In this document: piece after piece, positions 345 through 22,351 of the stretch
Numbering within the stretch: position 1 is the stretch's first letter
Layout of the letters: each line of letters starts with the position of its first letter
Source of the DNA: a virus
Strand: one strand, 5' to 3'
Length of the DNA: 22,351 nt
Virus record (IMG/VR): IMGVR_UViG_3300025769_000932
Coordinates: 1-22,351 of that record
Position numbers and translations under genes: made by a program
The notes under the pieces: model-generated
What the model was told of the DNA's origin: nothing
What the model saw: the letters and a program-made list of their open reading frames with translations, nothing else
The model's database searches: none

Positions 345-352
345 TATATTTG
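320..352 (+). promoter_or_regulatory. Host-type Bacteroidetes promoter upstream of the sigma-like gene
   Basis: TATATTTG at 345-352 is an exact match to the Bacteroidetes -7 consensus TAnnTTTG. It is preceded by TTGTTG at 320-325, leaving 19 bases after the second TTG, which is the normal spacing to the -33 element. Transcription would begin near 358-360, giving a leader of about 60 bases that contains the hairpin at 377-412 before the sigma-like gene. This is the best host-type promoter in the window. Confidence 0.65.
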
Positions 353-376
353 AGTCCATATTGTTAATACTTAAAA

Positions 377-412
377 AAGGAGGTAGTCGGCTTAACGTAG
401 CGTTGCCTCCTT
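377..412 (+). promoter_or_regulatory. Leader hairpin before the sigma-like gene; possible minus-strand terminator
   Basis: AAGGAGG (377-383) pairs with CCTCCTT (406-412), extended inward by a wobble and an A-T pair, around a loop of about 18 bases. On the plus strand it is followed by ATTAAAAT, a poor U-tract. On the minus strand the stem is followed by a T-run, so it would work better as a terminator for leftward transcription, yet no leftward gene is nearby. Ten bases separate it from the ATG at 422, so in the plus-strand leader it could control translation or transcription of the sigma-like gene. Confidence 0.55.
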
Positions 413-421
413 ATTAAAATT

Positions 422-892
422 ATGGATACACTTGACATACTAGCAAAACATCACGATGAATGGCTTTCAATAGCCTTATCGTTCGGTGCAACAGAGGACT
501 TGGTACAGGATATGTACATCAGAGCGTACAAGTACAAAGGTTTTCTCAACCAAGACAAAACTCCAAATAGAGCCTTCATTTGGATAACTATGCGTAACTT
601 GTTTTACGATTCAATCAAAAAAAATCAACATCATATAGAACTAGATACTACGTATCATTCTATCCCAGAAACTCCAGACGAGTATCTTAAAGAAGCCTTA
701 GAGCTAGTGGATAAAACAAAAAAAGAATGGCATCACTTCGACTCCATGATGTTCGACCTTTACCTTCACTCTGGAATGTCAATGCGAGATATCGAGAAGG
801 AAACAGGGATATCTTTATCTACTATTTTTCTTACAATTAAACGATGTAAGGATAGACTTAAACAACAAAACGACAAAATAAAAGTTATATAG
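422..892 (+). CDS. Phage sigma-70-family (ECF-like) RNA polymerase factor
   Basis: A 156-residue protein with the two-domain plan of small group-4 sigma factors. Residues 21-68 resemble region 2: an acidic segment with EDLVQDMYIRAYKY, then an aromatic- and Trp-containing helix ending near MRNLFYDSIKK, the part that binds the -10 element and core polymerase. After a linker, residues 105-148 resemble region 4, with a helix-turn-helix around SMRDIEKETGISLSTIFLTI. It is expected to redirect host RNA polymerase to phage promoters. The adjacent terminase genes fit a late-gene switch. A host-type promoter precedes it, and its own last codons overlap a copy of the repeated AGTTATATA motif. Region 2 is divergent, so a sigma-like regulator without true sigma activity is possible. 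Confidence 0.75.
   Translation: MDTLDILAKHHDEWLSIALSFGATEDLVQDMYIRAYKYKGFLNQDKTPNRAFIWITMRNLFYDSIKKNQHHIELDTTYHSIPETPDEYLKEALELVDKTKKEWHHFDSMMFDLYLHSGMSMRDIEKETGISLSTIFLTIKRCKDRLKQQNDKIKVI
861..891 (+). promoter_or_regulatory. Composite motif copy 1 (candidate late promoter)
   Basis: AACAACAAAAC at 861-871 is followed 11 bases later by AGTTATATA at 883-891, four bases or fewer from the ATG at 895. It overlaps the end of the sigma-like gene, whose TAG stop lies at its edge. It would serve the cysteine-motif protein and terminase genes. See the finding on the six copies. Confidence 0.5.
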
Positions 893-894
893 TT

Positions 895-1269
895 ATGGAG
901 AAGTTAAAACAACCTAGAAAGAAACAATCCAAAGGATTAGGAGATACTATCGAGAAGATAACCGAAGCTACTGGAATCAAGGCAGCGGTTAAGTTCATTG
1001 CAGGAGAAGATTGTGGTTGCGATGAGCGTAAGGATAAGTTAAACGAATTGTTTAGATATAAGACACCTAAGTGTTTGACAGAGAGCGAGTATGAGCAATT
1101 AGATATCGTTCTAAATAGACAAAGAAAAACGGAGATATCACCAGTAGAGCAATATGCAATGATTAAAGTATACAATCGTATCTTTGACGCTAAGGAAACA
1201 TTTACTACTTGTGGATCTTGTTTACGAGATTTAGAACAAAAACTTAAGAAGGTATATGATTTATATTAG
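895..1269 (+). CDS. Conserved cysteine-motif (possible zinc-binding) protein
   Basis: A 124-residue protein with a basic N-terminus (residues 1-13), a CxC motif at Cys40/Cys42 within EDCGCDERKDKLNELF, a lone Cys60, and a CxxC at Cys106/Cys109. The pairs Cys40/Cys42 and Cys106/Cys109 could together hold one zinc ion. I recall similar proteins with a GEDCGC signature next to terminase genes in Bacteroidetes phages, without a known function. It follows the sigma-like gene by two bases and precedes the small terminase. A DNA-binding or packaging-accessory role is plausible from the basic tail and position but is inference. No membrane segment is seen. Confidence 0.75.
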   Translation: MEKLKQPRKKQSKGLGDTIEKITEATGIKAAVKFIAGEDCGCDERKDKLNELFRYKTPKCLTESEYEQLDIVLNRQRKTEISPVEQYAMIKVYNRIFDAKETFTTCGSCLRDLEQKLKKVYDLY

Positions 1270-1348
1270 TGGGGTTATTTACTACGAAATATTGACTGAT
1301 AACTTTCATTATGTTATTTATCTAAATTAATTAATTAAAACAAAAATA

Positions 1349-1639
1349 ATGGATAACAGAAGGAATAACGGAGGACATTCTACTAAGGGAAAAGCTGGTA
1401 GAAAACCTAAAGACGAGGAGAATAGAATACGGGATTTAATGTCGCCTTATTCGTTAGATGCTATACAATGCTTGGCTAATATAGTTATATCGGAGAAGGC
1501 TAGAGATAGTGATAAAATTAGTGCAGCTAAGTTGATAATCGAGTACACTTATGGTAAGCCTAAAGAGACTATCGATAATAACATTACGGTATCCGAAACT
1601 AATATAAAAGAGTTATTAAGCTTTGGTGGATCTAAATGA
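1349..1639 (+). CDS. terS: Probable terminase small subunit
   Basis: A 96-residue protein directly upstream of, and overlapping by about 16 bases, the large terminase gene. The N-terminus is basic and Gly-rich (NGGHSTKGKAGRKPKDEE), followed from about residue 28 by a helical domain (SPYSLDAIQCLANIVISEKA) and a segment KISAAKLIIEYTYGKPKE, a pattern typical of small terminase-like proteins, where the C-terminal part contacts the large subunit. It would recognise phage DNA for packaging. The call rests on size, position and the AAKxxxEYxYGKP signature. It is short for the family, so the DNA-binding part may be reduced. Confidence 0.7.
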   Translation: MDNRRNNGGHSTKGKAGRKPKDEENRIRDLMSPYSLDAIQCLANIVISEKARDSDKISAAKLIIEYTYGKPKETIDNNITVSETNIKELLSFGGSK

Positions 1640-2831
1640 TAAGTATAGAGCATTTGGAAGTGATAGTAGGTACTTTATTGTTACTGGTGGCCGTGGTTCT
1701 GGTAAATCATTCTCGATCAACATACTTCTACTATTTCTTACTTACGAGAGAGGACATATTATTCTTTTCACTCGCTATACTCTTACTTCTGCTCATGTAT
1801 CTATCATACCAGAATTTCTAGAGAAGATAGATATACTTGATAAACATAGTGACTTTCACGTTACTAAAGACGAGATAGTAAACCTAAAAACAGGGAGTAA
1901 GATATTATTTAAGGGTATCAAAACAAGTTCTGGAACTCAGACGGCTAATCTTAAATCACTAGCTGGAGTTACAACATGGGTATTAGATGAAGCTGAGGAG
2001 TTAACCGATGAAGATACTTTCGATAAGATAGATTATTCTATCCGTTCTAAGGACAAAGATAATAGGGTTGTGTTGATACTTAACCCTGCTACTAAAGAAC
2101 ACTTTATCTATCAAAGGTTCTTTGAATCGAAAGGAGTAGAGGCAGGAAGTAATATAGTCAAGGGAGATACTACGTATATTCATACTACCTACTTAGATAA
2201 TATAGATAATCTTTCTGAATCGTTTCTAACACAAATAGAGACAATGAAAATACACCGACCAGAGAAGTATAAACATACTATTCTAGGAGGGTGGCTCGAT
2301 AAAGCCGAGGGGGTTATATACACCAATTGGTCGATAGGTAAATTTAATGAAGATATACCTAGCGTATTTGGACAAGATTATGGATTTAGTAACGATCCAA
2401 GCACTTTAGTCGAAACTGCAATAGATAAATCTAAGAAGATTATTTACGCAAGGTTACACGTATATCAACAAGGGTTAACTACTTCTCAACTTGCTAATCT
2501 TAATATCCGATTTGCTGGCAAAAAGTTAATAGTAGCAGATAATGCTGAGCCTAGATTGATAGCTGAACTTTCTAACTTAGGATGTAATGTTGCACCTTGT
2601 GTTAAGTACAAAATAAACGAAGGGATAGCTACTATACTAGATTACGATTTGGTAATAGACGAGGAGTCAATAGACTTGATTAAGGAATTGAACAACTATT
2701 GTTGGCTGGAGCGTAAGAGTGAAACTCCAATCGATAAATACAATCATGCTTTGGATGCTCTTAGATATGCGGTTACTTATCAACTTGAGAATGCACATAA
2801 AGGAAACTATAAAATAAGCTTCATTCGTTAA
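1623..2831 (+). CDS. terL: Terminase large subunit (packaging ATPase and nuclease)
   Basis: A 402-residue PBSX/Terminase_3-type protein that pumps DNA into the prohead and cuts concatemers. Walker A is TGGRGSGKS at 21-29; Walker B is WVLDEAEE with Asp122/Glu123; a motif III-like ILNPAT is near 152-157. The RNase H-like nuclease domain starts near residue 248, with acidic residues Asp252 (GQDYGFSND), Asp306 (IVADNAEP) and Asp378 (HALDALRYA). All expected residues are present, so it looks functional. No ATG is available near the N-terminus: the start is TTG at 1623 or GTG at 1626, both inside the small-subunit gene, implying coupled translation. Confidence 0.93.
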   Translation: MVDLNDKYRAFGSDSRYFIVTGGRGSGKSFSINILLLFLTYERGHIILFTRYTLTSAHVSIIPEFLEKIDILDKHSDFHVTKDEIVNLKTGSKILFKGIKTSSGTQTANLKSLAGVTTWVLDEAEELTDEDTFDKIDYSIRSKDKDNRVVLILNPATKEHFIYQRFFESKGVEAGSNIVKGDTTYIHTTYLDNIDNLSESFLTQIETMKIHRPEKYKHTILGGWLDKAEGVIYTNWSIGKFNEDIPSVFGQDYGFSNDPSTLVETAIDKSKKIIYARLHVYQQGLTTSQLANLNIRFAGKKLIVADNAEPRLIAELSNLGCNVAPCVKYKINEGIATILDYDLVIDEESIDLIKELNNYCWLERKSETPIDKYNHALDALRYAVTYQLENAHKGNYKISFIR

Positions 2832-2861
2832 CAACAAAACAATGCTAAAATAAGTTATATA
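2830..2861 (+). promoter_or_regulatory. Composite motif copy 2 (candidate late promoter)
   Basis: AACAACAAAAC at 2830-2840, starting at the last base of the large terminase stop codon, is followed 12 bases later by AGTTATATA at 2853-2861, four bases before the ATG at 2866. This copy lies in true intergenic DNA and matches copy 1 over about 35 bases with a one-base spacing change. Confidence 0.5.
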
Positions 2862-2865
2862 AGTA

Positions 2866-3543
2866 ATGAAGATAGAGATTAATATTCCAGAAAGTTTAAA
2901 GGAGATAAAGCTCAAAGACTATCAGAAGTTTGTTAAGACTTGTAAAGATAGTAACGATGAGATGTTTGTAAAACAGAAGATGATAGAAATCTTTTGTGGT
3001 GTGCCTTTGCTTTCTGTTTTAAAGATGAAGTTCTCAGATGTTGAGGATATAACAAATCATCTAAACAACCTATTCACTAAACAACCTAACTTAATACGTA
3101 AATTCGATATAGTTGGCTTAGAGTTTGGATTTATTCCTAACCTAGAGAAGATAACGTTTGCTGAGTATATTGACTTAGATACTTATATTGCTGACTTCGA
3201 TAATATGCACAAAGCAATGGCAGTATTATACAGACCAATAGTAGACAAACGAAAAGATACTTACTCTATTGAGGAGTACACTGGATCGGATGCGTACTCC
3301 GAGATAATGGAGCATGTTAGTATGGAGGTTGTGATAGGAGCAAGGGTTTTTTTTTGGAATTTAAGCAACGAGTTATTGACGGCTATCCCAACTTATTTGG
3401 AGAAACAGGTGAGCAAAATGAATACTCGGAAAGCTACCAATTTGGGAGCAAATGGGGATGGTATCAATCAATCTATTCACTTGCTAAAGGAGACGTTACA
3501 AGACTTGATGAAGTTACAGAGGTTGGATTATTTAAAGCTTTAA
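2866..3543 (+). CDS. Tail-assembly-chaperone-like protein, frame-0 product
   Basis: The 225-residue unshifted product. Residues 1-163 look like a soluble mixed fold (MKIEINIPESLKEIKLKDYQ at the start, acidic middle) and end at a run of nine T residues at 3347-3355 coding for Val-Phe-Phe-Trp. After the run, frame 0 stays open for another 62 codons and ends 60 bases before the next gene. The -1 frame instead stays open to an 8-base overlap with the next gene and looks more protein-like. A short and a shifted product from one gene, upstream of the tape measure, is the hallmark of tail assembly chaperones (lambda gpG/gpGT). No family is recognised from the sequence itself, so the role is inferred. 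A sequencing error in the T-run is the main alternative. Confidence 0.65.
   Translation: MKIEINIPESLKEIKLKDYQKFVKTCKDSNDEMFVKQKMIEIFCGVPLLSVLKMKFSDVEDITNHLNNLFTKQPNLIRKFDIVGLEFGFIPNLEKITFAEYIDLDTYIADFDNMHKAMAVLYRPIVDKRKDTYSIEEYTGSDAYSEIMEHVSMEVVIGARVFFWNLSNELLTAIPTYLEKQVSKMNTRKATNLGANGDGINQSIHLLKETLQDLMKLQRLDYLKL
3348..3354 (+). other. Slippery heptamer T TTT TTT for -1 frameshifting
   Basis: In the frame of the gene starting at 2866 the run reads GTT TTT TTT TGG, placing a T TTT TTT heptamer at 3348-3354. Both tRNAs could re-pair perfectly after a -1 slip, and decoding would resume at TTG 3354. The fused product would be 163 + 85 = 248 residues. I saw no obvious strong downstream pseudoknot by eye. 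Confidence 0.55.
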
Positions 3544-3611
3544 CGATGCTTAGTTTTGAGAAAGAAAAACACGATATAGAAATGATGCAAATACAAAGAC
3601 GAAATGGCTAA
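3354..3611 (+). CDS. -1 frame extension of the chaperone-like gene
   Basis: Eighty-five codons, entered from TTG 3354 after the slip rather than by independent initiation. It contains an aromatic-rich core, FGSKWGWYQSIYSLAKGD at about residues 31-48, then TRLDEVTEVGLFKALTMLSFEKEKHDIEMM. This resembles a compact domain I associate with Bacteroidetes phage virion proteins (WGWYxxIYxLAxGDxxxLDEVTE). It ends in TAA overlapping the ATG of the next gene by eight bases, the tight packing seen elsewhere here, whereas the frame-0 stop leaves a gap. Both points suggest this frame is translated. It cannot be an ordinary gene: there is no ATG near its 5' end. Confidence 0.6.
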   Translation: MEFKQRVIDGYPNLFGETGEQNEYSESYQFGSKWGWYQSIYSLAKGDVTRLDEVTEVGLFKALTMLSFEKEKHDIEMMQIQRRNG

Positions 3612-4062
3612 CTATTACGATATAACTAAACAAATACACGATTTCTTTATAACTAATCCGATGTGTAATTACGTTACTAAAGGTAGCCTTGACGAGCTTA
3701 TGAATGCAAAGCATGACATGTACCCATTGGCACACGTTCAGATTAACAACGCCACTATACAAGGTCATTCTATTACTTATAACGTATCTGTATCTGTAAT
3801 GGACTTGCTAGATTATTCTAAGGAGCAACCAGCAGATATTTATGTAGGGAATAGTAATGTAGATGACGTTCTAAACGCAAGCCTATTGTTACTAAACAAC
3901 TTCCACGAGCACTGCATTAGAGGTAATATGTGGGATGATGACTATCGTATCGAGGATAGCTCTGGAAGCATAGAGTTCTTTGAGGAACGGTTCATAGATA
4001 ATGTGGCTGGAGCTACTATGACTTTTGATTTGGTAACAGGAAATACAATGACTAAATGCTAG
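3604..4062 (+). CDS. Neck or tail-completion-like structural protein
   Basis: A 152-residue soluble protein, probably alpha/beta. Its N-terminal half (ITKQIHDFFITNPMCNYVTKGSLD) precedes a beta-rich core with PLAHVQINNATIQGHSITYNVSVSVMD and the acidic segment KEQPADIYVGNSNVDDVLNASLLLL. I recall similar proteins in Bacteroidetes phages beside HK97 gp10-like genes, where tail-terminator and head-completion proteins are usually encoded. The role is inferred from position and fold pattern, not from a recognised motif. It overlaps the -1 extension upstream by eight bases and the next gene by seven, so it belongs to the same transcript. Confidence 0.5.
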   Translation: MANYYDITKQIHDFFITNPMCNYVTKGSLDELMNAKHDMYPLAHVQINNATIQGHSITYNVSVSVMDLLDYSKEQPADIYVGNSNVDDVLNASLLLLNNFHEHCIRGNMWDDDYRIEDSSGSIEFFEERFIDNVAGATMTFDLVTGNTMTKC

Positions 4063-4604
4063 ATAGAAGCTATGTACAGAAGGAGCTTGATAATTTCAAG
4101 AAATACGTTATACAACAAAGTAGGAGCAATCTAACTAAGGGAGGAAAGAACGTAAATAAGAAGCTATACAACTCTATTAATGGGGAGGCTATCTCTAGCA
4201 AGAACAGTTTACGTCTTGCATTTGAGATGGAGGACTATGGTACCTTTCAAGATTTAGGGGTAAAGGGTAAGGACCCGAGTAAAGTATCTAAAGGTTCAAA
4301 GATAAGAGGGCAGCAAGCGCCGAATAGCCCTTATAGTTTTAAGGATAAAGCACCTCCAGCAAGTGCGTTACTTCCATGGGTTAAGGCAAGAGGTATAAAT
4401 CCTAGATTCCGAGATGCAAAAGGTAAATTTCAGAAAGGAAGTCATTTAGGGTTTGCTAGGTTAATATCTTTAAATATATTCTACAGAGGAATAAAACCTA
4501 GTTTATTTTTTACTAAGCCTTTTGAGAAAGCATTTGAAAGATTACCAGATGATATAATCGAGGCTTACGGATTAGATGTTGAATCTTTAATTAAATTGAA
4601 ATGA
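4056..4604 (+). CDS. HK97 gp10-like head-tail connector / neck protein
   Basis: A 182-residue basic protein. Features typical of the gp10-like family are an N-terminal helix with basic residues (LDNFKKYVIQQSRSNL), a KLYNSI segment near residue 37, a beta motif FEMEDYGTFQDLGVKG (about 56-71), a Pro/Ala-rich segment PPASALLPWVKARGI (about 100-114), and a C-terminal KPFEKAFERLP like the family's P-F-x-x-A-F end. These proteins act in the neck, joining head to tail or ending tail tube growth. Its stop overlaps the following start as ATGA. It is somewhat longer than usual because of an inserted basic loop (about 115-150). Confidence 0.6.
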   Translation: MLDRSYVQKELDNFKKYVIQQSRSNLTKGGKNVNKKLYNSINGEAISSKNSLRLAFEMEDYGTFQDLGVKGKDPSKVSKGSKIRGQQAPNSPYSFKDKAPPASALLPWVKARGINPRFRDAKGKFQKGSHLGFARLISLNIFYRGIKPSLFFTKPFEKAFERLPDDIIEAYGLDVESLIKLK

Positions 4605-5635
4605 GTAACATATTTGCAAGGTCACCTTATGTGATAGAGATAGACGAGGCTAGTCAGTTAGCTACTAAGTTAGAGTTGTTTATTTGGAATGGTACAGGAT
4701 CTATTCCTTCATCTCCACAATACACATTTAGTAAGTCAATCCCAGCTAGCAACAACACTGCTACGAACTACAATGTGTCTCCATACATTAGAGAGTACTT
4801 TAGTTTCTTAACTGCTCAGAATCCTACTAGCACTACTGCTACCACAACATCGCATTGGTGCAACGTAACAGTAAAGAGATACAAGGACATAGGTGCTGGC
4901 TATGTACTCGTAGACACAACGAACTATTACGCTTTTGACGGCTTTGGGTTCTTTGGGGATGGTTACAATTACGATAACGGAAATTACTTAAGAAGGCAAA
5001 AGGACTACGTTTATTCTAGTGGTACTTATGCTGGTTATGTTGTAGCTTATTTGGGGGTTAATTGGCACGTAGAATGGAATGACGGCACGACAAACCACGT
5101 TGATAGCTCGATAGTGACTGCTGGCTGGTATTCAATACCTTTAATCTATTTAGGAGGTACGACAGGAGATTGGACTTTAACGATTATAGATAATGGAGAT
5201 GCAACGCAAGCTACGTATACAACTACCGAAAAAACCGAATGTAAATACACTCCTATTGCTTGTGATTTTATCAATAAATATGGATCGTGGCAACGTGAGT
5301 TTTTCTTTAAAGCCTCGAATGATAGCATAGAGATAAGTTCGAACGATTATAATGTAATGCCTTCATCCTTCCCTAATTATTCAACAAGCGAAGGTCAAAA
5401 AAGAAGTTTCAATACAAACGGGAAAGAATCAATCAAGGTCAACACGGATTGGGTAGATGAGGATTGGAGCGATAACCTAAAGGAGTTAATGTTAAGTGAG
5501 CGAATATTGATCAACGGAAAGCCAGCAAGTTTGAGGACTAAATCTACCGAACTATTCAAACATATAAACACTAAACAAATAAACTACACTTTGGAATTTG
5601 AATACAATTATAACACTATTAACAACGTAATGTAA
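4601..5635 (+). CDS. Tail structural protein, 344 residues
   Basis: A beta-rich protein with many Thr, Ser, Asn, Tyr and Gly residues and no membrane segment. Its N-terminus (FARSPYVIEIDEASQLATKLELFIWNG) and the segment NVSPYIREYF resemble a family I associate with Bacteroidetes phages, located just before a larger tail-tip protein. The C-terminus includes KSTELFKHINTKQINYTLEFEY. Cysteines are few (one in HWCNV; two near CKYTPIACDF). It is probably part of the tail tip or baseplate-like hub. It overlaps both neighbours (ATGA upstream, TAATG downstream), so it is made together with the 779-residue protein, a likely binding partner. No enzymatic motif is seen. Confidence 0.5.
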   Translation: MSNIFARSPYVIEIDEASQLATKLELFIWNGTGSIPSSPQYTFSKSIPASNNTATNYNVSPYIREYFSFLTAQNPTSTTATTTSHWCNVTVKRYKDIGAGYVLVDTTNYYAFDGFGFFGDGYNYDNGNYLRRQKDYVYSSGTYAGYVVAYLGVNWHVEWNDGTTNHVDSSIVTAGWYSIPLIYLGGTTGDWTLTIIDNGDATQATYTTTEKTECKYTPIACDFINKYGSWQREFFFKASNDSIEISSNDYNVMPSSFPNYSTSEGQKRSFNTNGKESIKVNTDWVDEDWSDNLKELMLSERILINGKPASLRTKSTELFKHINTKQINYTLEFEYNYNTINNVM

Positions 5636-7974
5636 TGGAGAGAAAGGTAGACATTTGGATTGAAGGAAACACAATAGGTGACTATTCAAAACTAGAGTTA
5701 TTTAAGGATGAAAAGATAGTAATTAATTCTTCTATACAAAATATAAATGACATATCAAAGGTATACACAGACTTTTCTCAATCATTTACTATACCAGCAT
5801 CTCCAATTAACAACGCTGCTCTTCATCACTTCTATCAATCGGACGTAGACATTGAACTAGACGTTGATAACAATCCTTTATGGAATCCGAACTATAGACG
5901 TAAAGCATTTATAGAAGTTGATTTAACACCTTTCAAAACAGGGTTTATATCAATCGAAAAATCTAATATAGTAAACGGAAACGTAGAGAGTTATTCCATT
6001 ACTTTTTACGGCGACTTAATAAGCCTTAAGGATAAGTTTGGAGATGACATGTTAAGAGATTTAGATTTCTCTAGCTATGAACACGACTATACAGGTGCAG
6101 AGGTACAAGCAAGGGTGGAGACCGATACGGATGAGGATGTTTGTTATCCTTTAATTTGTAATAAATCTGCAGCGTGGACATACGACGATGCAAGTAGTAC
6201 GGATATAACAACAACAACAGGGAGGATAGAATGGACTGAGTTATTTCCAGCGTTGAAGGTTGCGAGAATTATGGATGCTATCGAGGCAAAATATGATTTG
6301 ACTTTCAATAGTGCGTTTTTTCAAAGTGCTAATCTAAGATGGGAGAAGTTATACATGTTATTCAAGAATCAAGAAACAAACGTAACTACTTCACAGACCA
6401 GAACGGTAAGATTGTTGCAGACCAACATGAACACTAATACCTATAACATTGTTGACTTAACCAATCATAGGATAATATTTGTACCAGAGCTGAATTGTAC
6501 GAAAATTAAAGCTAACATAACTTTTCAAGTAGTTTCAGGTTCTGGCAACTATTACTTAGATGTATACATTAATGGTGCGTTCAATCGTACACTAGAGGGT
6601 GATGCTACTAAGTTATTTACTGCTTACTCTAATTCCAATCCTCCGTTAAGTAATGAGGAGATAAGCTTTAAGGTTAGAGCAGATGCAGCGATAACATACA
6701 CTTGTTCTATATCTATGATAAGGGGTTATAGTGCGAGTGAGAAACAACAAACGGTTGTGGTTGGTTACGTAGATACTTTGGCTCTGAAAAGTGGGTTAAG
6801 CTACAAAGCACCAGATATTAAGGTTACAGATTTTTTCACAGGGATTTTGAAAATGTTCAACTTAACCTGTTACGCTGTTTCAGTTGATAGCTTTATCGTA
6901 GAGCCGTTGGACGATTGGTATTCGCAAGGTAGGGTTGTTGATGTATCTAGTTACGTTGACACGGATAGCATAGAGATAGGCAAACATTCTTTGTACAAGA
7001 ACTTAGTGTTTAAATATTCGGAGTGCAAATCGACTATTAACAATGGTTATTTAGACTTAAACAATAGAGAGTTCGGTAATATAGTTCAGTCAAACACGTA
7101 TGAGGGAGGGGAGTATAAAGTAGAGCTACCATTCGAGAATTTATTGCCTAGTAGATTCACAGGGGAGAATTTGCAAGTAAGTTACTTAGTAGATAAGGAT
7201 TTAAAGACTTACGTACCAAAACCAGTGTTATTATATCGAGGTGATCAAACAAATCACAATGGATTAGAGTTCTGGAATGGTACAACGCAAGACAATATAA
7301 CGACTTATGTGCCTTTTGGAAATGAGGTAGGATATAATAATAACTTGTACTCACTAAATTTTAGTGTTGAGTATTCAAGCTTATACGCAGATACACAATT
7401 AAACAATAGTCTGTATAACGTGTACTATGATAGCTATTTAAAAAACTTATTCAATCCTAAAAATAGACTAACAAGCCTAAAAACACATTTACCAATTTCT
7501 TTATTAACACAAATAAAACTTAATGATAGGCTAATCATAAGAGACAAAAGGTATATAATTAACGACATAAAAACAGACCTAACCACAGGAGACGTTGACC
7601 TTTCTCTAATTAACGATTTTAGAAGTGTAATTAATGTTAACCAAGATTTAGGTATTGGTTCGGGAGGTGGCACGGTGGTTATTGGTATTCCTGTACCAAC
7701 TGGTACGACGGTGACTGTATCTAGTGGTACACCAGGTGTGGGAATTACTCCTACCGTTTTTACAACACCCGGCACTACAACGGTAACAGTGCCTACGAAT
7801 CCAGACATTGCTGGTTATCTACTTGCTGAGAATGGAGACTTCTTAATAAGTGAGGAGTTGTACAGCATAATAACCGAGGAAACGAATGAGCAATATATAG
7901 ATATAAACGTACTAACAACGTGGCCAGATGGCACAACTAATGACAATACATTATATATAATTCAAGAACCATGA
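5635..7974 (+). CDS. Large tail-tip / tail-associated protein, 779 residues
   Basis: The largest protein in the window. The N-terminal 130 residues are beta-rich (ERKVDIWIEGNTIGDYSKLE; IPASPINNAALHHFY; FKTGFISIEKSNIVNG), followed by several beta domains with polar and aromatic residues. Residues of about 680-725 form a low-complexity linker of Gly, Pro, Thr and Val (IPVPTGTTVTVSSGTPGVG). A short C-terminal segment begins at AGYLLAENGDFLISEELYS. The linker followed by a small terminal piece suggests a flexible, exposed tip. Position between neck genes and the tape measure, and coupling to the 344-residue protein, suggest a tail-tip or host-recognition hub. No protease or lysozyme motif is visible. 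Assignment is by context. Confidence 0.55.
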   Translation: MERKVDIWIEGNTIGDYSKLELFKDEKIVINSSIQNINDISKVYTDFSQSFTIPASPINNAALHHFYQSDVDIELDVDNNPLWNPNYRRKAFIEVDLTPFKTGFISIEKSNIVNGNVESYSITFYGDLISLKDKFGDDMLRDLDFSSYEHDYTGAEVQARVETDTDEDVCYPLICNKSAAWTYDDASSTDITTTTGRIEWTELFPALKVARIMDAIEAKYDLTFNSAFFQSANLRWEKLYMLFKNQETNVTTSQTRTVRLLQTNMNTNTYNIVDLTNHRIIFVPELNCTKIKANITFQVVSGSGNYYLDVYINGAFNRTLEGDATKLFTAYSNSNPPLSNEEISFKVRADAAITYTCSISMIRGYSASEKQQTVVVGYVDTLALKSGLSYKAPDIKVTDFFTGILKMFNLTCYAVSVDSFIVEPLDDWYSQGRVVDVSSYVDTDSIEIGKHSLYKNLVFKYSECKSTINNGYLDLNNREFGNIVQSNTYEGGEYKVELPFENLLPSRFTGENLQVSYLVDKDLKTYVPKPVLLYRGDQTNHNGLEFWNGTTQDNITTYVPFGNEVGYNNNLYSLNFSVEYSSLYADTQLNNSLYNVYYDSYLKNLFNPKNRLTSLKTHLPISLLTQIKLNDRLIIRDKRYIINDIKTDLTTGDVDLSLINDFRSVINVNQDLGIGSGGGTVVIGIPVPTGTTVTVSSGTPGVGITPTVFTTPGTTTVTVPTNPDIAGYLLAENGDFLISEELYSIITEETNEQYIDINVLTTWPDGTTNDNTLYIIQEP

Positions 7975-8123
7975 TAAAGCATATACTAGCATTGCTTAAG
8001 TTAAGTGATTTTTACGGAGTATCCGAGAACGTAGATATAGCTAAAGGAAAATACGAGTATAATAATTCGTTTAGACAAACAACAAAACAAGCGAAAAGGA
8101 AGTTATATAGTTATGGCAATTAA
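7971..8123 (+). CDS. Small 50-residue protein before the tape measure
   Basis: A 50-codon ORF starts inside the stop of the preceding gene (ATGA) and overlaps the tape measure start by 11 bases. It begins MIKHILALLKLSDFYGVSEN and ends in a basic segment, FRQTTKQAKRKLYSYGN. Coupling at both ends and a sensible composition (hydrophobic N-terminal helix, basic C-terminus) support a real gene that accounts for the otherwise empty 138 bases before the tape measure. Its last codons coincide with a copy of the repeated AGTTATATA motif. A role in tail assembly is possible from position; none is recognised. Confidence 0.6.
   Translation: MIKHILALLKLSDFYGVSENVDIAKGKYEYNNSFRQTTKQAKRKLYSYGN
8078..8109 (+). 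promoter_or_regulatory. Composite motif copy 3 (candidate late promoter)
   Basis: AACAACAAAAC at 8078-8088, 12 bases, then AGTTATATA at 8101-8109, three bases before the ATG at 8113. It lies inside the 3' end of the 50-residue ORF yet keeps both blocks and the spacing. Confidence 0.5.
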
Positions 8124-10053
8124 AAAGGTTATAGAGGTAGAAATAAAGGATAATGCTGTTGCAACACAGGATCATTTCAACGATTTACGTAATGAAATAA
8201 AAAAAACAGAAAAAGAAGTTGAAGAACTATCTAAGACCTACGGGACTAATTCCAAAGAGGTAAAGGAGAGCGTTAAACAACTTAACAAGCTACAAGATGC
8301 GTATACCAACTTATCAAAAGAGGCTACCGATTTAAACGCAACTTTTGAGGACATATACGGTGATATGAAGCCACTTACGGCTCGTATGGGTGAGGCTGAG
8401 GATAGATTATATGAACTTGCTTTGGCTGGTAAAACAGGCACTCAAGAGTATAGAGATTTACTTGAAGCGACTGGTAATTACAAGCGAGTGCAACAGCAAA
8501 CAGATTTAGTAGTTGATGCTGCTGCTACAACTCTAGGGCAAAAACTAGGTGGAGCGTTACAAGGCGCAACGTCTTCCTTTGCTGCCGTACAGGGGGCTAT
8601 GGCTACAATGGGAGTGGAGAGCGAGAAAATAAACGAGGCATTACTGAAAGTACAGGGCGCTATGGCACTTAGCGAGGGTGTACGTGGTGTTCGTGAGGCT
8701 ATTCCGATATTTACCTTGTTAGGTACAACAATAAAAACAAAGGTAGTTACTGCATTTAGTACCTTAAAAGGTGCAATAATAGCAACTGGAATAGGTGCTC
8801 TAGTTGTGGCTATTGGCTTTGCTATCCAAGCATGGATTGAATATAATAATAGCATAGAGGAGGCAGCCGAAAAACAAGCTAAATTAAACGAAGAGCAGAA
8901 AAAATCCTTAGAGATTATAAACGAAATAATAAATGCCAGCGAACAATTAAGGAATAAAAAACAAGGGGGACTAAACGACTTAAAAAGGGAGATAGATTTA
9001 CTTAAAGCTAAGGGTGCAACTGAGAAAGAAATATTCGAAAAGTCAAAAGAAATCTTAAAGCAAGAGTTATTTAATCAACAGGTTAGATACGAAACCCTGA
9101 AAATGGGAAGTGCCTTAGAGCGTGAGGAGGCAAGGAAAGTTAAAGAGGAGATAAAGAACACTAGAAATGATATTCGAGTTCTAGAGGCTGAGTTTTATAG
9201 AGGTAGAAGGGAAAAAAGGGAAGAGGATAACAAGGACGCAAGAGAGAAAGCAAAACAAAGAAGGTTAGACGAATTAAAAGCTATTGAAGAGGCAAACAAT
9301 CAAAGAATAGCTTTAGAGGATGCGCAATTCAAACTATTACAAGAGGCTACATATTCCAATAAAGAATTGGAGATTGCAAGACTTGTAGAGGCTTATGACC
9401 AAAAGTTCGCTATTGCTAATGGAAATGCTGAGTTAGAGAAAGCATTAATGGAAAAGCAAAAGCAAGAGCTTGCAGAGATAGAGGGCAGATACGCCACTCA
9501 TTCCGTAGAAACAACTCAAGCTACGGAAGAAAAGAAAGCCGATATTATTAAAGCTACGGAAGAGCAAAAATATCAGGCAGTACAAGATGGACTAACAAGC
9601 ATTGCTAACCTATCTTATTTATTCGCTAATAAGTCCGAAAAGCAACAACGTAGAGCTTTTGAGATACAGAAGGCAGCTAACATCTCTAGCACATTAATAG
9701 ATACTTATCGTAGTGCTACTGGGGCCTTTAAATCTCTTGCTGATATTCCTGTTGTCGGTCCAGTGTTAGGTGGGTTCGCTGCTGCCGCTGCAATTACCAA
9801 CGGACTTGCAAACGTAAAGAGAATACAATCGCAACAATTCGGAGGAGGCGACACTGGTGGGGGATCAACTCCTTCAATCGGGGGTATTAGTGGTGGCGAA
9901 TCAAGAGCACCGCAATTCAACATTGTTGGTCAAGGAGGGGTGGGACAAGCACAATTTTTAGAGCAAAAACCTGTACAAGCATTCGTTGTTAGTGGGGAGG
10001 TAACAAGTCAACAGGCTTTAGATAGAAACAGATTAAGAAATGCAACTTTATAA
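8113..10053 (+). CDS. Tape measure protein
   Basis: A 646-residue protein that sets tail length and passes through the tail tube. It has a long coiled-coil N-terminus (about 20-90), a hydrophobic segment at about 218-244 (AIIATGIGALVVAIGFAIQAW), extended charged helices (about 245-480), a second hydrophobic Gly/Ala segment at about 545-566 (VVGPVLGGFAAAAAITNG), a Gly-rich linker (about 575-600) and a short polar end. This is the standard tape-measure plan. At about 1.5 angstroms per residue it predicts a tail roughly 95-100 nm long. A near repeat of ATEEKKADIIKATEEQK occurs near 470-490. It heads a block that continues into the prohead protease two bases downstream. Confidence 0.85.
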   Translation: MAIKKVIEVEIKDNAVATQDHFNDLRNEIKKTEKEVEELSKTYGTNSKEVKESVKQLNKLQDAYTNLSKEATDLNATFEDIYGDMKPLTARMGEAEDRLYELALAGKTGTQEYRDLLEATGNYKRVQQQTDLVVDAAATTLGQKLGGALQGATSSFAAVQGAMATMGVESEKINEALLKVQGAMALSEGVRGVREAIPIFTLLGTTIKTKVVTAFSTLKGAIIATGIGALVVAIGFAIQAWIEYNNSIEEAAEKQAKLNEEQKKSLEIINEIINASEQLRNKKQGGLNDLKREIDLLKAKGATEKEIFEKSKEILKQELFNQQVRYETLKMGSALEREEARKVKEEIKNTRNDIRVLEAEFYRGRREKREEDNKDAREKAKQRRLDELKAIEEANNQRIALEDAQFKLLQEATYSNKELEIARLVEAYDQKFAIANGNAELEKALMEKQKQELAEIEGRYATHSVETTQATEEKKADIIKATEEQKYQAVQDGLTSIANLSYLFANKSEKQQRRAFEIQKAANISSTLIDTYRSATGAFKSLADIPVVGPVLGGFAAAAAITNGLANVKRIQSQQFGGGDTGGGSTPSIGGISGGESRAPQFNIVGQGGVGQAQFLEQKPVQAFVVSGEVTSQQALDRNRLRNATL

Positions 10054-10055
10054 AT

Positions 10056-10634
10056 ATGGAATTACAAGACATTGAAATGAAAATTACTGATGAAATGGAT
10101 GAGGGAGTATTCGCTATTTCGTTAGTAGATAAACCAGCAATCGAGGAGGACTTCATTAAGTTATCCGCTGAGGAGGTGCAACTAAAAGTATTAGACGAGG
10201 AGAAACGAATAGTAGTAGGATTTGCTCTAGTGCCAGAGAAACGTATTTATAGACGTGTAAAGGATAAAGAGTTTAACATATATTTTACTAAAGAAACGAT
10301 AGCAAAAACGCAAGAGCTATTTATGAGAAAACTTAATCTATCAAACTTTACTATCGATCACGAGAAAGAAATACAAGGTGTATCTGTTATCGAATCTTGG
10401 GTGGTAGAAGATCCGAGAAATGATAAGTCAAACATATACAACCTAAACGCTAAAGGTGGCGAATGGGTGTTGATGAGTAAGATATATAACGATGAGATTT
10501 GGAAGGAAATAAAAGAGGGTAAATTCAAAGGGTATTCTATCGAGGGCAAATTTGATGGGTTTGACGAGTTGAAACAAAGTGATGATAACGAGGAGTTAAT
10601 TAACGAGATAAAAGAGTTTTTGAGAAATGCCTGA
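10056..10634 (+). CDS. XkdF-type prohead maturation protease
   Basis: A 192-residue protein resembling the XkdF family (Peptidase_S78_2), which cleaves scaffold and capsid proteins during head maturation. The N-terminus has the typical SLVDKPAIEEDF segment, then VVGFALVPEKRIYR. The likely catalytic His102 lies in FTIDHEKE and Ser161 in GYSIEGKF; Glu113 in IESWVV could be the third residue. The protein ends after the catalytic core with a short acidic tail, so it is a stand-alone protease. Its position before scaffold and capsid genes fits. It overlaps the following gene by eight bases. Confidence 0.8.
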   Translation: MELQDIEMKITDEMDEGVFAISLVDKPAIEEDFIKLSAEEVQLKVLDEEKRIVVGFALVPEKRIYRRVKDKEFNIYFTKETIAKTQELFMRKLNLSNFTIDHEKEIQGVSVIESWVVEDPRNDKSNIYNLNAKGGEWVLMSKIYNDEIWKEIKEGKFKGYSIEGKFDGFDELKQSDDNEELINEIKEFLRNA

Positions 10635-11928
10635 GATACCATACTACGTACGAACGTCTACGGTAACTACTCTATCGGATACAGACTATATAATAGCTGA
10701 TAATCCTAATAGTGATGTAGCTAAAAAAATTACTTACTCAGACTTTGTGTCTTTGATAGGATCGGATGTAACCATAGATTTAGGTAATATAGTATTCGTA
10801 TCTTCTAAATCCGAACTACCAACAGCGGTAGAAGGGGTTATAACACTAGCTGCGAATATTACCTATTATTTCACTACCACCGTAGACTTGACAGGAGATA
10901 GATTAGTAGGAGGTTCTAATACGGTTATATTGGGTAGTTCTTCAGAGAATAGTAGAATAACGTCTACTGGTTTAGGGGTTGGTGTACCTTTGTTTTATAC
11001 TGAATGGACTACTCCAATAAGACACGTAACATTTCAAGACGTAGATACTGCGATACATATTGTTGGGGATGTAAATCCTCCAGTAGCATTGGATTGGACT
11101 GGTGTGAATTTTCTAAACGTAGATAACGTAGGATTAATAGATACTTGTGATAACTTCATATATTCTAAAGGTGCTATTCTAAATAGTCAAAATTTACAAT
11201 TTAGTGGCACGATAGGAACGGTTGGTATAGACAATTCTATATTTGTTGGTGGCGGTGGTGTGGGTAATATACTAGACATCCTTTCAACGTGTACAATTAC
11301 ACGTAGATTTAGATTGATTTACTCGTCTATGGTTGTATTTGGATCAACGGTTGGAATAAATGTAGATGTTAGTGCTACTATACCTACGGAGGGTTATATA
11401 TTAGATACCATTAATTTTAGTGCTGGAGGTACTTATTTAAGTGGTGTTAGCTATACGGATAACAAAACAAGGTTTGTAAATAGTAAAGGAATAGAGAATA
11501 CAGCAGAGATAGGTAACTACTATATGACTAATAACGCAACAGCGACCACTATATCAGCCACAGACACTCCAGTAAAGGTGTTAGGTACGACATCACCAAA
11601 CACTATAAACCAAAAGTTTACACACTCGGATAATAGACTTACTTATGTAGGTGCTTTAATTCGTGATTTTCAAGTAACCGCTACAACTTCTTTATCTAGT
11701 GGAAATAATAACGTGATTGGCGTATATGTCGCTAAAAATGGAGTTGTAATAACCTCTAGTGAAATGTATTCAACTACTTCTAGTGGTGGGAAAGCTGAAA
11801 GTATAACGTGTCAAACAATACTCGAGTTAAATGAGAATGACTACATAGAAATATGGGTGGAAAATAGCACTGCGGTTACGGATGTTACGGTGGAATACTT
11901 GAATGTTATTTGCAAGTCTTTGAACTAA
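10627..11928 (+). CDS. Fibre- or spike-like beta-rich virion protein
   Basis: A 433-residue protein in three parts. Residues 1-45 (TSTVTTLSDTDYIIADNP then KKITYSDFVSLIG) resemble the short anchoring domain often found at the start of phage fibre proteins, and match the start of the 151-residue protein at 18170. Residues of about 60-290 contain Gly-, Val- and Thr-rich short strands consistent with a right-handed beta-helix. Residues of about 295-433 look like a beta-sandwich of the jelly-roll or C1q/TNF-like type, ending DYIEIWVENSTAVTDVTVEYL. The place between prohead protease and scaffold favours a head fibre or head decoration over a tail fibre. No catalytic residues of a depolymerase are identifiable by eye. 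Confidence 0.6.
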   Translation: MPEIPYYVRTSTVTTLSDTDYIIADNPNSDVAKKITYSDFVSLIGSDVTIDLGNIVFVSSKSELPTAVEGVITLAANITYYFTTTVDLTGDRLVGGSNTVILGSSSENSRITSTGLGVGVPLFYTEWTTPIRHVTFQDVDTAIHIVGDVNPPVALDWTGVNFLNVDNVGLIDTCDNFIYSKGAILNSQNLQFSGTIGTVGIDNSIFVGGGGVGNILDILSTCTITRRFRLIYSSMVVFGSTVGINVDVSATIPTEGYILDTINFSAGGTYLSGVSYTDNKTRFVNSKGIENTAEIGNYYMTNNATATTISATDTPVKVLGTTSPNTINQKFTHSDNRLTYVGALIRDFQVTATTSLSSGNNNVIGVYVAKNGVVITSSEMYSTTSSGGKAESITCQTILELNENDYIEIWVENSTAVTDVTVEYLNVICKSLN

Positions 11929-14680: not shown

Positions 14681-14724
14681 TAACACCACATAAACAACAT
14701 AAAACGTAGTTTATTTGTGTGTTA
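14681..14724 (-). repeat. TAACAC...GTGTTA imperfect hairpin after the minus-strand cassette
   Basis: TAACACCACATAAAC (14681-14695) is complementary, with one insertion and one mismatch, to GTTTATTTGTGTGTTA (14709-14724), around a loop of about 13 bases containing ACGT. It lies nine bases past the stop of the minus-strand zinc-motif gene. The TAAC/GTTA ends recall the elements near the right end of the window. Confidence 0.6.
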
Positions 14725-14733
14725 GCAACAATA

Positions 14734-14907
14734 CTAATCAAGGTCGTTTAACTTTTGTTCAGTATAGCACATTTCACAAATTCCTTTATAATTTATTTCA
14801 GTATTGCATTCCGTACAGTTGCTAACATCAGATAAAATTAATTTTAATTTCTCTAATTCTTCGGGTGTTAGTTTTTTTAAATGGTCACATACTAATTTAA
14901 AACTCAT
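14734..14907 (-). CDS. Small zinc-ribbon-like protein, 57 residues
   Basis: A leftward ORF of 57 residues: a helical N-terminus (FKLVCDHLKKLTPEELEKLK) and a C-terminal four-cysteine motif, Cys31-x2-Cys34 (NCTECN) and Cys44-x2-Cys47 (GICEMCY), nine residues apart, which would form a compact zinc ribbon. Such knuckles occur in small phage and bacterial regulators and nucleic-acid-binding proteins. It is downstream of the 157-residue gene on the same strand, 57 bases away. The segment before the first cysteine (EELEKLKLILSDVSNC) resembles one in that neighbour (EELTELKKLRVGDVSNC). Orientation against the virion genes marks it as an accessory insertion. Regular cysteine spacing makes it a convincing gene despite its size. 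Confidence 0.65.
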   Translation of the reverse strand: MSFKLVCDHLKKLTPEELEKLKLILSDVSNCTECNTEINYKGICEMCYTEQKLNDLD

Positions 14908-14964
14908 ATCTTATTTTTTTAATATTAAAACTAATCTTATCTGTGGCACGTTATATACTATAGC

Positions 14965-21099: not shown

Positions 21100-21130
21100 A
21101 TAGCACTCGTAAAAAAAGTGCTATTTTTTT
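21100..21130 (+). terminator. Rho-independent terminator ending the lysis block
   Basis: ATAGCACT (21100-21107) pairs perfectly with AGTGCTAT (21117-21124), around a nine-base A-rich loop, followed by a seven-base T-run. It lies eight bases beyond the endolysin stop and marks the end of the late transcription unit. Confidence 0.88.
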
Positions 21131-21138
21131 ATCTAATA

Positions 21139-21171
21139 TATAACGTATATTAATAATAAGTGTTATATTTG
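21139..21171 (+). promoter_or_regulatory. TATAAC...GTTATA inverted repeat with a -7-like box
   Basis: TATAAC at 21139-21144 and GTTATA at 21162-21167 are perfect inverted repeats around 17 A/T-rich bases. TATATTTG at 21164-21171 exactly matches the Bacteroidetes -7 consensus, 23 bases before the ATG at 21195, but no TTG is seen 19 bases upstream. The repeat could be an operator on the promoter of the first accessory gene. It may also be related to the TAAC/GTTA elements further right. Confidence 0.45.
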
Positions 21172-21194
21172 TGTATAATTAAAAACTAAACACT

Positions 21195-21398
21195 ATGAAA
21201 ATTTTAAGCACAAAAAGATTTAACAAGGCACAACAAGAGAAGTTTGAATTTTTAAATTCAGTTGTTGTTAAATGCGTGAAAGACATGAATGACGATTTTA
21301 CTGTTTATCATAACATTATAAATAGCATAATAAGAGCTATAAAAAATAATGATTTCCAGTTAGCAGACGAAAGAACAATCAATTACACTCAAAGATAA
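21195..21398 (+). CDS. Hypothetical accessory protein, 67 residues
   Basis: I do not recognise it. The protein is basic and helical in appearance (KRFNKAQQEKFEFLNSVVVKCV, then FTVYHNIINSIIRAIKNNDF), without membrane segments or motifs. It is the first gene after the lysis terminator, and its ATG lies 23 bases past the -7-like box at 21164-21171. The next small ORF begins after only four bases, so the two probably form a short operon separate from the late genes. Composition and length are like those of other accessory genes in the right-hand region. Confidence 0.55.
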   Translation: MKILSTKRFNKAQQEKFEFLNSVVVKCVKDMNDDFTVYHNIINSIIRAIKNNDFQLADERTINYTQR

Positions 21399-21402
21399 CA
21401 CT

Positions 21403-21537
21403 ATGATTTTATTTATTTCGGGCTTAATATTAGCCTACGTATGCAACCATTTCGACAATGAAATGAAGATTAAAAGAAGGTTAAAGAAAGCTAAAGAGGA
21501 GTTGTTCTCGGATGATAGAGAAAAGTATTGGCATTAA
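21403..21537 (+). CDS. Small single-span membrane protein, 44 residues
   Basis: A 44-residue ORF four bases after the preceding gene. The first 14 residues (MILFISGLILAYVC) are hydrophobic and could span the membrane or act as an uncleaved anchor. The rest is strongly charged (HFDNEMKIKRRLKKAKEELF and DDREKYW), as expected for a cytoplasmic helix attached to the membrane. It has no recognised family. Its TAA stop begins TAACG, a feature shared with the next two ORFs. The regular amphipathic pattern and the operon-like spacing favour translation. Confidence 0.5.
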   Translation: MILFISGLILAYVCNHFDNEMKIKRRLKKAKEELFSDDREKYWH

Positions 21538-21568
21538 CGTATGGTGGTATGGTGTCGTTGCGACCTTA
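21535..21568 (+). repeat. TAACG-type half element after the 44-residue ORF
   Basis: The stop codon opens TAACGTATGGTGG and continues to TGGTGTCGTTGCGACC, with only a four-base-pair GTCG/CGAC stem. The long right arm seen in the two later elements is missing, so this looks like a left half or decayed copy. Confidence 0.35.
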
Positions 21569-21607
21569 CACAACTAAATTAATTAATAACACAAAAAAAA
21601 TTGAACA

Positions 21608-21820
21608 ATGAATACAGATAGCAAAAAAACAGAAACCGAGCAATGCACTATACCTATTGTTAGGCGTAGTTTTTCTCATACCAAAGTTAATTTAAGAAAT
21701 GAAGATATTGAGGATATGATAAGCACCTATGAGTTTCTTGTTTGGAATAATGAAGGTGAAGATAAAAAACATTGCCAAAGGGCACTAAGACAATTAAAAA
21801 AGGCTATAAATTACGCCTAA
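21608..21820 (+). CDS. Hypothetical accessory protein, 70 residues
   Basis: I do not recognise this protein. It is polar and mixed in charge, with a disordered-looking N-terminus (NTDSKKTETEQCTIP), then VRRSFSHTKVNLRNEDIEDM, a short helix EFLVWNNEGEDKKHCQRALRQLKKAINYA. Two cysteines (13 and 56) are far apart. There is no membrane segment or enzyme signature. Start context is A-rich (ACACAAAAAAAATTGAACAATG). Its TAA stop is the first part of a TAACGG element that opens the hairpin at 21818-21901, the same arrangement as the next ORF. It sits alone as a one-gene cassette. Confidence 0.5.
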   Translation: MNTDSKKTETEQCTIPIVRRSFSHTKVNLRNEDIEDMISTYEFLVWNNEGEDKKHCQRALRQLKKAINYA

Positions 21821-21901
21821 CGGTTTGCAACTAGCTATTGGGCGTTCTGGAATATGTACGTTTCAAGCCTAATTGCTAATTGCTGTTATATGCCGTTTTT
21901 T
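21818..21901 (+). repeat. TAACGG...CCGTT hairpin after the 70-residue ORF
   Basis: AACGG (21819-21823) pairs with CCGTT (21893-21897), and between them AGCTATTGGGC (21833-21843) pairs with GCCTAATTGCT (21867-21877), with one mismatch and one G-U pair. CAACTAGC and GCTGTT add more pairing. AATTGCT is repeated in tandem (21871-21884), which disturbs the register. A T-run follows the closing CCGTT. The stop codon of the upstream ORF lies in the first bases. Confidence 0.6.
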
Positions 21902-21926
21902 ATTTACAAACTTAAAAATCAATTAA

Positions 21927-22133
21927 ATGATATACGAAGAAAAATTTTTTAAACATAAACCGACTAAATATAGGGATGGTTTTATTGAGATAGTTGCTAG
22001 ATTGGAACTTTCAGAAGGTGATTTACTTAGCTTGAGAATGGTTTTAAAAGAAAGTAAAAACGAATGGAGTAAAGAACTTTTAAAGAATATAGAAGAATCT
22101 TTTAGACGCAAGAGTATTCAAAATGGCATATAA
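21927..22133 (+). CDS. Hypothetical accessory protein, 68 residues
   Basis: I do not recognise this protein. It is small and highly charged, with an aromatic start (IYEEKFFKHKPTKYRDGF), a helix-like middle (FIEIVARLELSEGDLLSLRMVLKES) and a basic end (ELLKNIEESFRRKSIQNG), without cysteines or membrane segments. The pattern could fold as a small helical bundle. It is flanked on both sides by TAACGG-type hairpins: the preceding one ends 26 bases before its ATG, and its own TAA stop opens the next one. This makes it a discrete ORF-plus-element unit. Confidence 0.5.
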   Translation: MIYEEKFFKHKPTKYRDGFIEIVARLELSEGDLLSLRMVLKESKNEWSKELLKNIEESFRRKSIQNGI

Positions 22134-22232
22134 CGGTTGGGTATATGTGTTGTACGCCTAACCACAAATTTTAAAATTAAGTACGACACTTCATTGGCGT
22201 ATAACATATATACCGTGTTATTCCCCGTTTTT
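22131..22232 (+). repeat. TAACGG...CCCCGTT hairpin after the 68-residue ORF
   Basis: GGTATATGTGTTGTACGCC (22140-22158) pairs over all 19 positions with GGCGTATAACATATATACC (22196-22214), two of the pairs being G-U when read as plus-strand RNA. The loop is 37 bases. Outer AACGG (22132-22136) can pair with CCGTT (22225-22229), and TAAC with GTTA (22217-22220). A T-run follows CCGTT. It has the same plan as the element at 21818-21901. Confidence 0.75.
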
Positions 22233-22241
22233 ATTTGAATT

Positions 22242-22351
22242 ATGAATCACGAATTTGCACAAGATAAAATAAATAAATCAGACGAATTTTATACGCTTGA
22301 ATATGCTATAAAACCATTATTGAAATACATAACAAGTGGTAAAACTATATG
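22242..22351 (+). CDS. Start of a probable phage/bacterial DNA methyltransferase (partial)
   Basis: The ORF runs off the right edge; 36 complete codons are visible. After a short polar start (NHEFAQDKINK) comes SDEFYTLEYAIKPLLKYITSG, closely like the DEFYTPxYAIxPIlkYl segment that opens a family of Bacteroidetes SAM-dependent DNA methyltransferase-like proteins found in phages and mobile elements. The SAM-binding and catalytic motifs, which would lie further on, are outside the window, so activity cannot be judged. It begins 12 bases beyond the T-run of the preceding hairpin, in line with the layout of the other accessory ORFs. Confidence 0.6.
   Translation, partial: MNHEFAQDKINKSDEFYTLEYAIKPLLKYITSGKTI

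Follow-up and report, generated by a model that had tools for sequence, protein, structure and literature searches.

Palindromic elements and small genes in the window

The window, by which we mean the whole 22,351-bp stretch of DNA that was analysed, is a virus fragment carrying portal and tape-measure genes, and its final 816 bases are occupied by three units, each combining a palindromic element with a small ORF. A first-pass annotation had pointed here to small ORFs with TAACG at their stops (21535, 21818, and 22131) and to two hairpins, all of which were present. When the window was searched with R1, a covariance model for which 35 elements from other phages, and none from the window, served as training set, the top three matches were exactly the three elements of this array, all of them on the plus strand. 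Element 1 (21536-21661; 42.6 bits, E = 6e-6) begins with AACG, continues as an imperfect palindrome and ends with GTT; it shares 83% identity over 127 bp with an element of Polaribacter phage Freya. Its loop holds the start codon of the first cassette ORF (21608-21820, plus strand, 70 aa), the N-terminus of which reads through the hairpin's right arm and takes GTT as an in-frame Val codon. This copy had been thought to have lost its right arm, which was a misreading; the arm, ACCGAGCAATGCACTATACCTATTGTT, is coding sequence for part of that N-terminus.

The bases that flank these elements pair across the intervening ORF. AGGCGTA, directly after the GTT of element 1 (21662-21668, plus strand), pairs with TACGCCT, which the sequence places directly before the AACG of element 2 (21812-21818, plus strand). 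Element 2 (21819-21887; R1 36.0 bits, E = 9.3e-5) is a short form of 69 nt with a DNA fold of -11 kcal/mol (z -2.0). It is followed on the plus strand by the boundary repeat ATATGCC (21888-21894), the second cassette ORF (21927-22133, 68 aa), and, as placed by sequence comparison of neighbouring elements, the right boundary repeat GGCATAT (22125-22131); the two repeats pair at 7/7 positions, after which comes a recurrent G/A mismatch. Element 3 (22132-22219, 88 nt; R1 41.4 bits, E = 1e-5) has a DNA fold of -15.3 kcal/mol (z -2.3) and precedes a third ORF on the plus strand (22242-22351) that is truncated by the contig end. From 22272 to 22351 this ORF has 80% nucleotide identity with gp17 of Flavobacterium phage morran9-1, the record of which cites Pfam PF13651. 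The ORFs of cassettes 1 and 2 had no match in Pfam or PHROG, and Rfam and tRNA searches were negative. CCGTT had been proposed as the close of the hairpin; the functional right end is instead GTT plus 7 variable bases complementary to the last part of the ORF that follows. Counting TAACG was rejected as evidence, since the motif is frequent by itself in the window (72 observed vs 44 expected) and alone proves nothing; it is the structure that exceeds chance.

A close relative of this virus, L204, matches the window up to position 21519, about 15 bp before element 1, and then continues with other genes and no element, so that the array is an accessory region. The 22-kb window record contains no tyrosine recombinase, and the contig ends inside the array, with three sites present. 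The recombinase of the window phage probably lies beyond the contig end, or is supplied by the host or another phage.

A fourth, solitary unit was found on the minus strand at 14721-14952. Its element (14824-14952; R1 35.5 bits, E = 1.2e-4) is AT-rich (bias 16.3), and its ORF (14734-14907) has its start in the hairpin loop, again reads GTT as an in-frame Val codon, and encodes 57 aa that include CxxC pairs. The unit ends at a core AAC (14721-14723), and GTT-AGCAAC(TG)TAC pairs with GTA(TT)GTTGCT-AAC; the anatomy is thus that of the array units, with AGCAAC as the repeat. The hairpin near 14681, to which related ends had been ascribed, does adjoin a unit with array anatomy, namely this one. It is a short hairpin, AACACACAAATAAAC...GTTTATGTGGTGTT, located at 14682-14723 at the end of the solitary unit, and it may represent a relic or serve as a target site.

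The inverted repeat at 21139, to which related ends had likewise been ascribed, was rejected as an element (R1 11.1 bits, E 2.8). It overlaps a promoter-like motif, TATATTTG, and is read as promoter-like because L204 keeps it without any array. The intergenic region that holds both the repeat and TATATTTG (21118-21210), likewise kept in L204, has 76% identity with Tenacibaculum phages PTm1/PTm5 and is probably a phage promoter/operator of Bacteroidota type.

Unit anatomy and exchange in related phages

Related viral loci were gathered by pattern; the phage units considered numbered 128, at 47 loci. The unit consists of AACG, an imperfect palindrome (mostly about 124 nt), GTT, 7 bases, a small ORF, and the same 7 bases inverted before the next AACG; the medians were 124 nt for the element, 444 bp for the unit, and 99 aa for the ORF, and arrays reached up to 17 candidate elements. 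When neighbouring elements were compared across their ORF (80 pairs from related viruses), a mean of 4.1 leading bases matched, and at least 5 matched in 55% of pairs, compared with 5.6% for both ends of a single element, 7% for elements two positions apart (n+2), and 3% for elements of different loci; the G/A mismatch recurred right after the 7 boundary bases in this set. Because the bases after GTT return inverted before the next AACG, each inverted repeat belongs to an ORF, that is, to a cassette. In an integron, a cassette opens with bases complementary to the beginning of its own attC, and the phage units have the same property. Elements chosen by their cross-ORF repeats only still had a stem in 77 of 82 cases, while arms dealt to other elements paired in 3%; palindrome and boundary repeat are thus independent of each other, and both are real. 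Element sequence was poorly conserved (mean column identity 44%), with the stems kept.

The ORF started inside the hairpin in 54 of 119 phage units, and in 31 of these 54 GTT was an in-frame Val codon. Translation frequently begins within the loop, so that a start site and a short leader are supplied by many units themselves. Many phage units also have a T-rich run after GTT and the 7 bases. Among sampled ORFs, cargo matches included DNA methylases, YopX, and GNAT, and most ORFs had no known match.

Two near-identical phage contigs, L028 and L029, have 960 and 1434 bp in common at 100% identity, and L029 contains one extra 756-bp unit (hairpin plus ORF) located exactly between copies of GGTAACGT, the only 8 bp that are in common at the junction. 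A second pair, L081 and L083, is 100% identical for 4353 bp from the TAACG core onward and unrelated before the core, while L040 and L053 have a single 352-bp unit in common, core to core. Over all arrays, 19 of 251 homology endpoints fell within 6 bp of an AACG core (4.0 expected), and 1 fell at a GTT end. These unit differences and the endpoints at cores define the phage unit as AACG-hairpin-GTT-ORF, with exchange at the left core. The first-pass annotation had taken the unit to be an ORF plus the hairpin behind it; a cassette unit does exist, but in phages the hairpin goes with the ORF that follows. Sequence comparison thus showed presence or absence of a unit with both limits set precisely at AACG cores, which corresponds to the gain or loss of single cassettes at the core in integrons and is seen in L028/L029 and L081/L083. 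L028/L029 was the only clean one-unit insertion found, and a comparison of Freya strains gave no clean one-unit difference within the stretches examined.

Conserved ORFs in a conserved order with divergent hairpins would have spoken against cassettes. The opposite was found: among 26 pairs of near-identical hairpins, which often had the 7-base flank in common as well, 25 stood before unrelated ORFs. This suggests that new genes enter existing hairpin shells, which whole-unit exchange does not account for. A hairpin with the arm GCAACTACACGTCTGTTGCG recurs nearly unchanged in L014, L015, L020, L028, L033, L039, L043, and L051; its flank is often ATAACTC, and the ORFs behind it are unrelated.

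The adjacent recombinase, its attI-like site and bacterial relatives

A tyrosine recombinase, the type of enzyme anticipated near such arrays, was found beside those of relatives: a protein of 267-271 aa adjoins arrays in several viral records. A protein scan for it returned 59 viral loci, and in most relatives with at least 44% identity and enough upstream sequence, an array lay immediately upstream on the same strand; the distant relatives L112 and L113 had no array. The catalytic residues R, K, H, R, H, and Y were invariant. The flank of the last element had its inverted partner 46-56 bp ahead of the recombinase start codon at 25 of the 32 phage loci, and a conserved, TAAC-TATTATATATAAACA-like sequence without a hairpin came next (e.g., TAACTATTATATATAAACAAGTATAG or TAACTACTATATGTAAAAACC). 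Most of the exceptions had the same conserved sequence, with an undetected unit in between. We read this conserved non-palindromic site upstream of the recombinase as a putative attI-like site, and we infer that the adjacent recombinase performs the exchange. Morran9-1 and some other array-bearing phages carry no tyrosine recombinase. In the cultured phage morran9-1 (L020), about 12 candidate elements were found in one small-gene region (349-6080); if active, this long array must rely on the enzyme of another genome.

The phage recombinase scored 148 bits against TIGR02249, for which the IntI cut-off is 265, and 173 bits against NF040815 (cut-off 220). Profile A1 aligned with IntI4 at positions 9-177 and 211-256, leaving a gap of 33 aa compared with 81 in IntI4. 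By the available tests, the phage recombinase has no counterpart of the IntI4 insertion and is not an IntI. When a tree was built, in which the position of one IntI row (L364), whose translation was out of frame, was disregarded, IntI1, IntI3, and two others formed a clade of their own (support 96/99). The best PDB matches of the recombinase were of XerA type (4a8e and 5hxy), with end-to-end alignment, and XerC/D-like genes of Bacteroidota fell outside the clade of array recombinases. Within that clade, phage and bacterial array recombinases were sister groups.

A genome scan gave 80 recombinase relatives, nearly all in Bacteroidota. A search of Bacteroidetes genomes for the elements themselves, as the first-pass annotation had proposed, had a divided outcome: scanning bacterial genomes for the pattern of a single hairpin found nothing, because the arms vary too much, whereas R1 did find bacterial arrays, with phage-trained scores of up to 98 bits. 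Paired elements were located 3' of the bacterial recombinase, with 57 cross-ORF pairs downstream in 296 kb and none upstream in that orientation in 511 kb. Twenty of the 80 contigs ended within 350 bp of the recombinase 3' side, as repeats would cause. The bacterial R1 elements were always on the strand opposite to the recombinase; the orientation of the site relative to the position of the recombinase is thus constant, and it is ORF direction that is flipped between the two branches. An attI-like region, ending in TATATACAAGTT, was present after the stop codon of the bacterial recombinase. Among 296 sampled Bacteroidota genomes, 100 contained a relative of the bacterial recombinase, about 30 of them at 55% identity or more.

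Two plasmids carry related features. On the Chryseobacterium plasmid NZ_CP041688 (L366), a bacterial-type array at 6947-11562 has three near-identical 140-nt palindromes behind its recombinase. On the Acinetobacter baumannii plasmid NZ_CP104343 (L365), the 'xerD' gene (region 5983-8004), a known neighbour of tet(X3), is a relative of the recombinase described here, with 47% identity, and falls inside the array-recombinase clade. After tet(X3) there is a piece like the left arm of a bacterial-type element, but the boundary repeats do not match; tet(X3) may once have been a cassette.

Relation to integrons and competing explanations

Like integrons, these arrays consist of tandem small-gene cassettes with palindromic sites that have AAC/GTT ends and ORF-specific complementary ends, and a single non-palindromic attI-like site appears to stand beside a tyrosine recombinase gene in both phage and bacterial loci. 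Unlike integrons, the phage site precedes its ORF, and the ORFs read toward the recombinase, whose co-oriented gene begins about 50 bp downstream of the attI-like site. Because the phage array reads toward attI and the recombinase, a Pc promoter in the usual place is not expected. IntI defines integrons, and its additional domain is reported to be essential (PMC8138268, PMC9024848); the phage recombinase has no such domain and forms a branch separate from IntI. In a survey of tyrosine recombinases, the IntI insertion was described as essential to integron function though not fully conserved in an integron-like subgroup (PMC8138268). The Bacteroidota proteins named 'site-specific tyrosine recombinase/integron integrase' (NF040815) are the sister clade of the phage recombinases and adjoin the same site family; they differ from the phage branch in that the array lies on their 3' side and its ORFs point away.

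It had been stated that no such elements were described in phage, which is incorrect: Qi et al. 2023 (PMC9892861) reported attC clusters, 17 in all, from phages that include Polaribacter phage P12002L. Two P12002L sites were tested in that study, in which no recombinase or attI was reported, and recombination of attC2 with attI1 under IntI1 occurred at a frequency not different from a control. Given that IntI1 acts on a P12002L site, the presence of a cassette site in a flavobacterial phage is not new. In P12002L, R1 found one weak element (35.8 bits, E = 0.0015), and our scan gave four candidates. The P12002L cluster, a CALIN, resembles the present arrays in that it, too, lies in a flavobacterial phage and combines attC-like sites with DNA methylase genes; the present arrays differ in that cassette boundaries, a recombinase, and an attI-like site are described for them and the candidate elements number as many as 17. 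Within the literature searched, which did not extend to preprints and most subscription journals, neither the non-IntI recombinase nor the attI-like site was found described, nor were the cassette boundaries or a Bacteroidota-wide counterpart, and the novelty of the recombinase, the attI-like site, and the Bacteroidota-wide system is therefore provisional.

Given the activity of P12002L attC2 with IntI1 and an identical cassette anatomy, the strongest competing explanation is that the arrays are ordinary integron fragments (CALIN), with canonical attC sites mobilised by a host IntI. The first-pass annotation was right that the ends are attC-like, but they are not canonical: the integron R boxes GTTRRRY and RYYYAAC occurred in only 4 and 3 of the 128 phage units, respectively. 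The adjacent recombinase falls far short of the IntI cut-off (148 vs 265 bits) and has no IntI insertion, 11 of 12 genomes bearing recombinase relatives had no IntI above cut-off, and IntegronFinder 2 recorded one complete integron only in Bacteroidetes proper (PMC9024848). We therefore consider this explanation improbable. A slightly smaller chance is given to the shuffling of repeats by homologous recombination or phage mosaicism with no dedicated recombinase. Phage genomes are indeed mosaic, hairpins recur with unrelated ORFs, and arrays lacking an integrase exist; however, the L028/L029 junction offers only the 8 bp of GGTAACGT as common sequence, and the elements keep their stems despite a mean column identity of 44%. 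That the hairpins terminate transcription or act as RNA elements located between the small genes of the phage, with common ends arising by coincidence or regulation, is very improbable, for although T-rich runs follow many units and every hairpin comes after an ORF, a hairpin and T-run as the sole conserved feature would not predict ORF-specific inverted repeats, insertions exactly at AACG, hairpin-internal start codons (54/119 units), or the link with a recombinase and a fixed site. A secondary terminator role for the hairpins is possible.

Taken together, the ORF-specific inverted repeats, the precise presence or absence of single units, and the recombinase beside the arrays of relatives support the cassette-array reading put forward at the outset. 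It is highly probable, as judged from sequence comparisons, that the end of the window is the upstream part of an integron-like cassette array, in which folded palindromic sites would be recombined at AAC/GTT. In such a system, the recombinase would excise a unit as a circle, with the two 7-base repeats extending the palindrome to N7-AACG...GTT-N7; the circles would integrate at the attI-like site or at another element, with exchange in the TAACG core; and, by analogy with attC, the recombinase would recognise the folded hairpin and not a fixed sequence. Such an array would allow phages to gather small accessory genes and swap them with one another; these comprise DNA methylases, YopX, and GNAT, but for the most part genes without known match.

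The phage and Bacteroidota arrays have the look of a branch of the integron gene-capture machinery that has gone unnoticed. We incline, with some reserve, toward the further proposal that they constitute a second, separate class of integron across Bacteroidota and their phages, with an attI and a family of sites peculiar to it and an Xer-like recombinase that lacks the IntI domain; bacterial ORFs would point away from the recombinase, phage ORFs would be flipped relative to the sites and run into it, and phages would shuttle cassettes between bacterial arrays. Were arrays of folded sites to depend on a recombinase lacking the IntI domain, the evolution of hairpin recombination would become directly testable. 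The system appears to be common (100 of 296 genomes) in a phylum thought to be nearly integron-free, and it would give phages a site-specific route by which to collect methylases and other small accessory genes.
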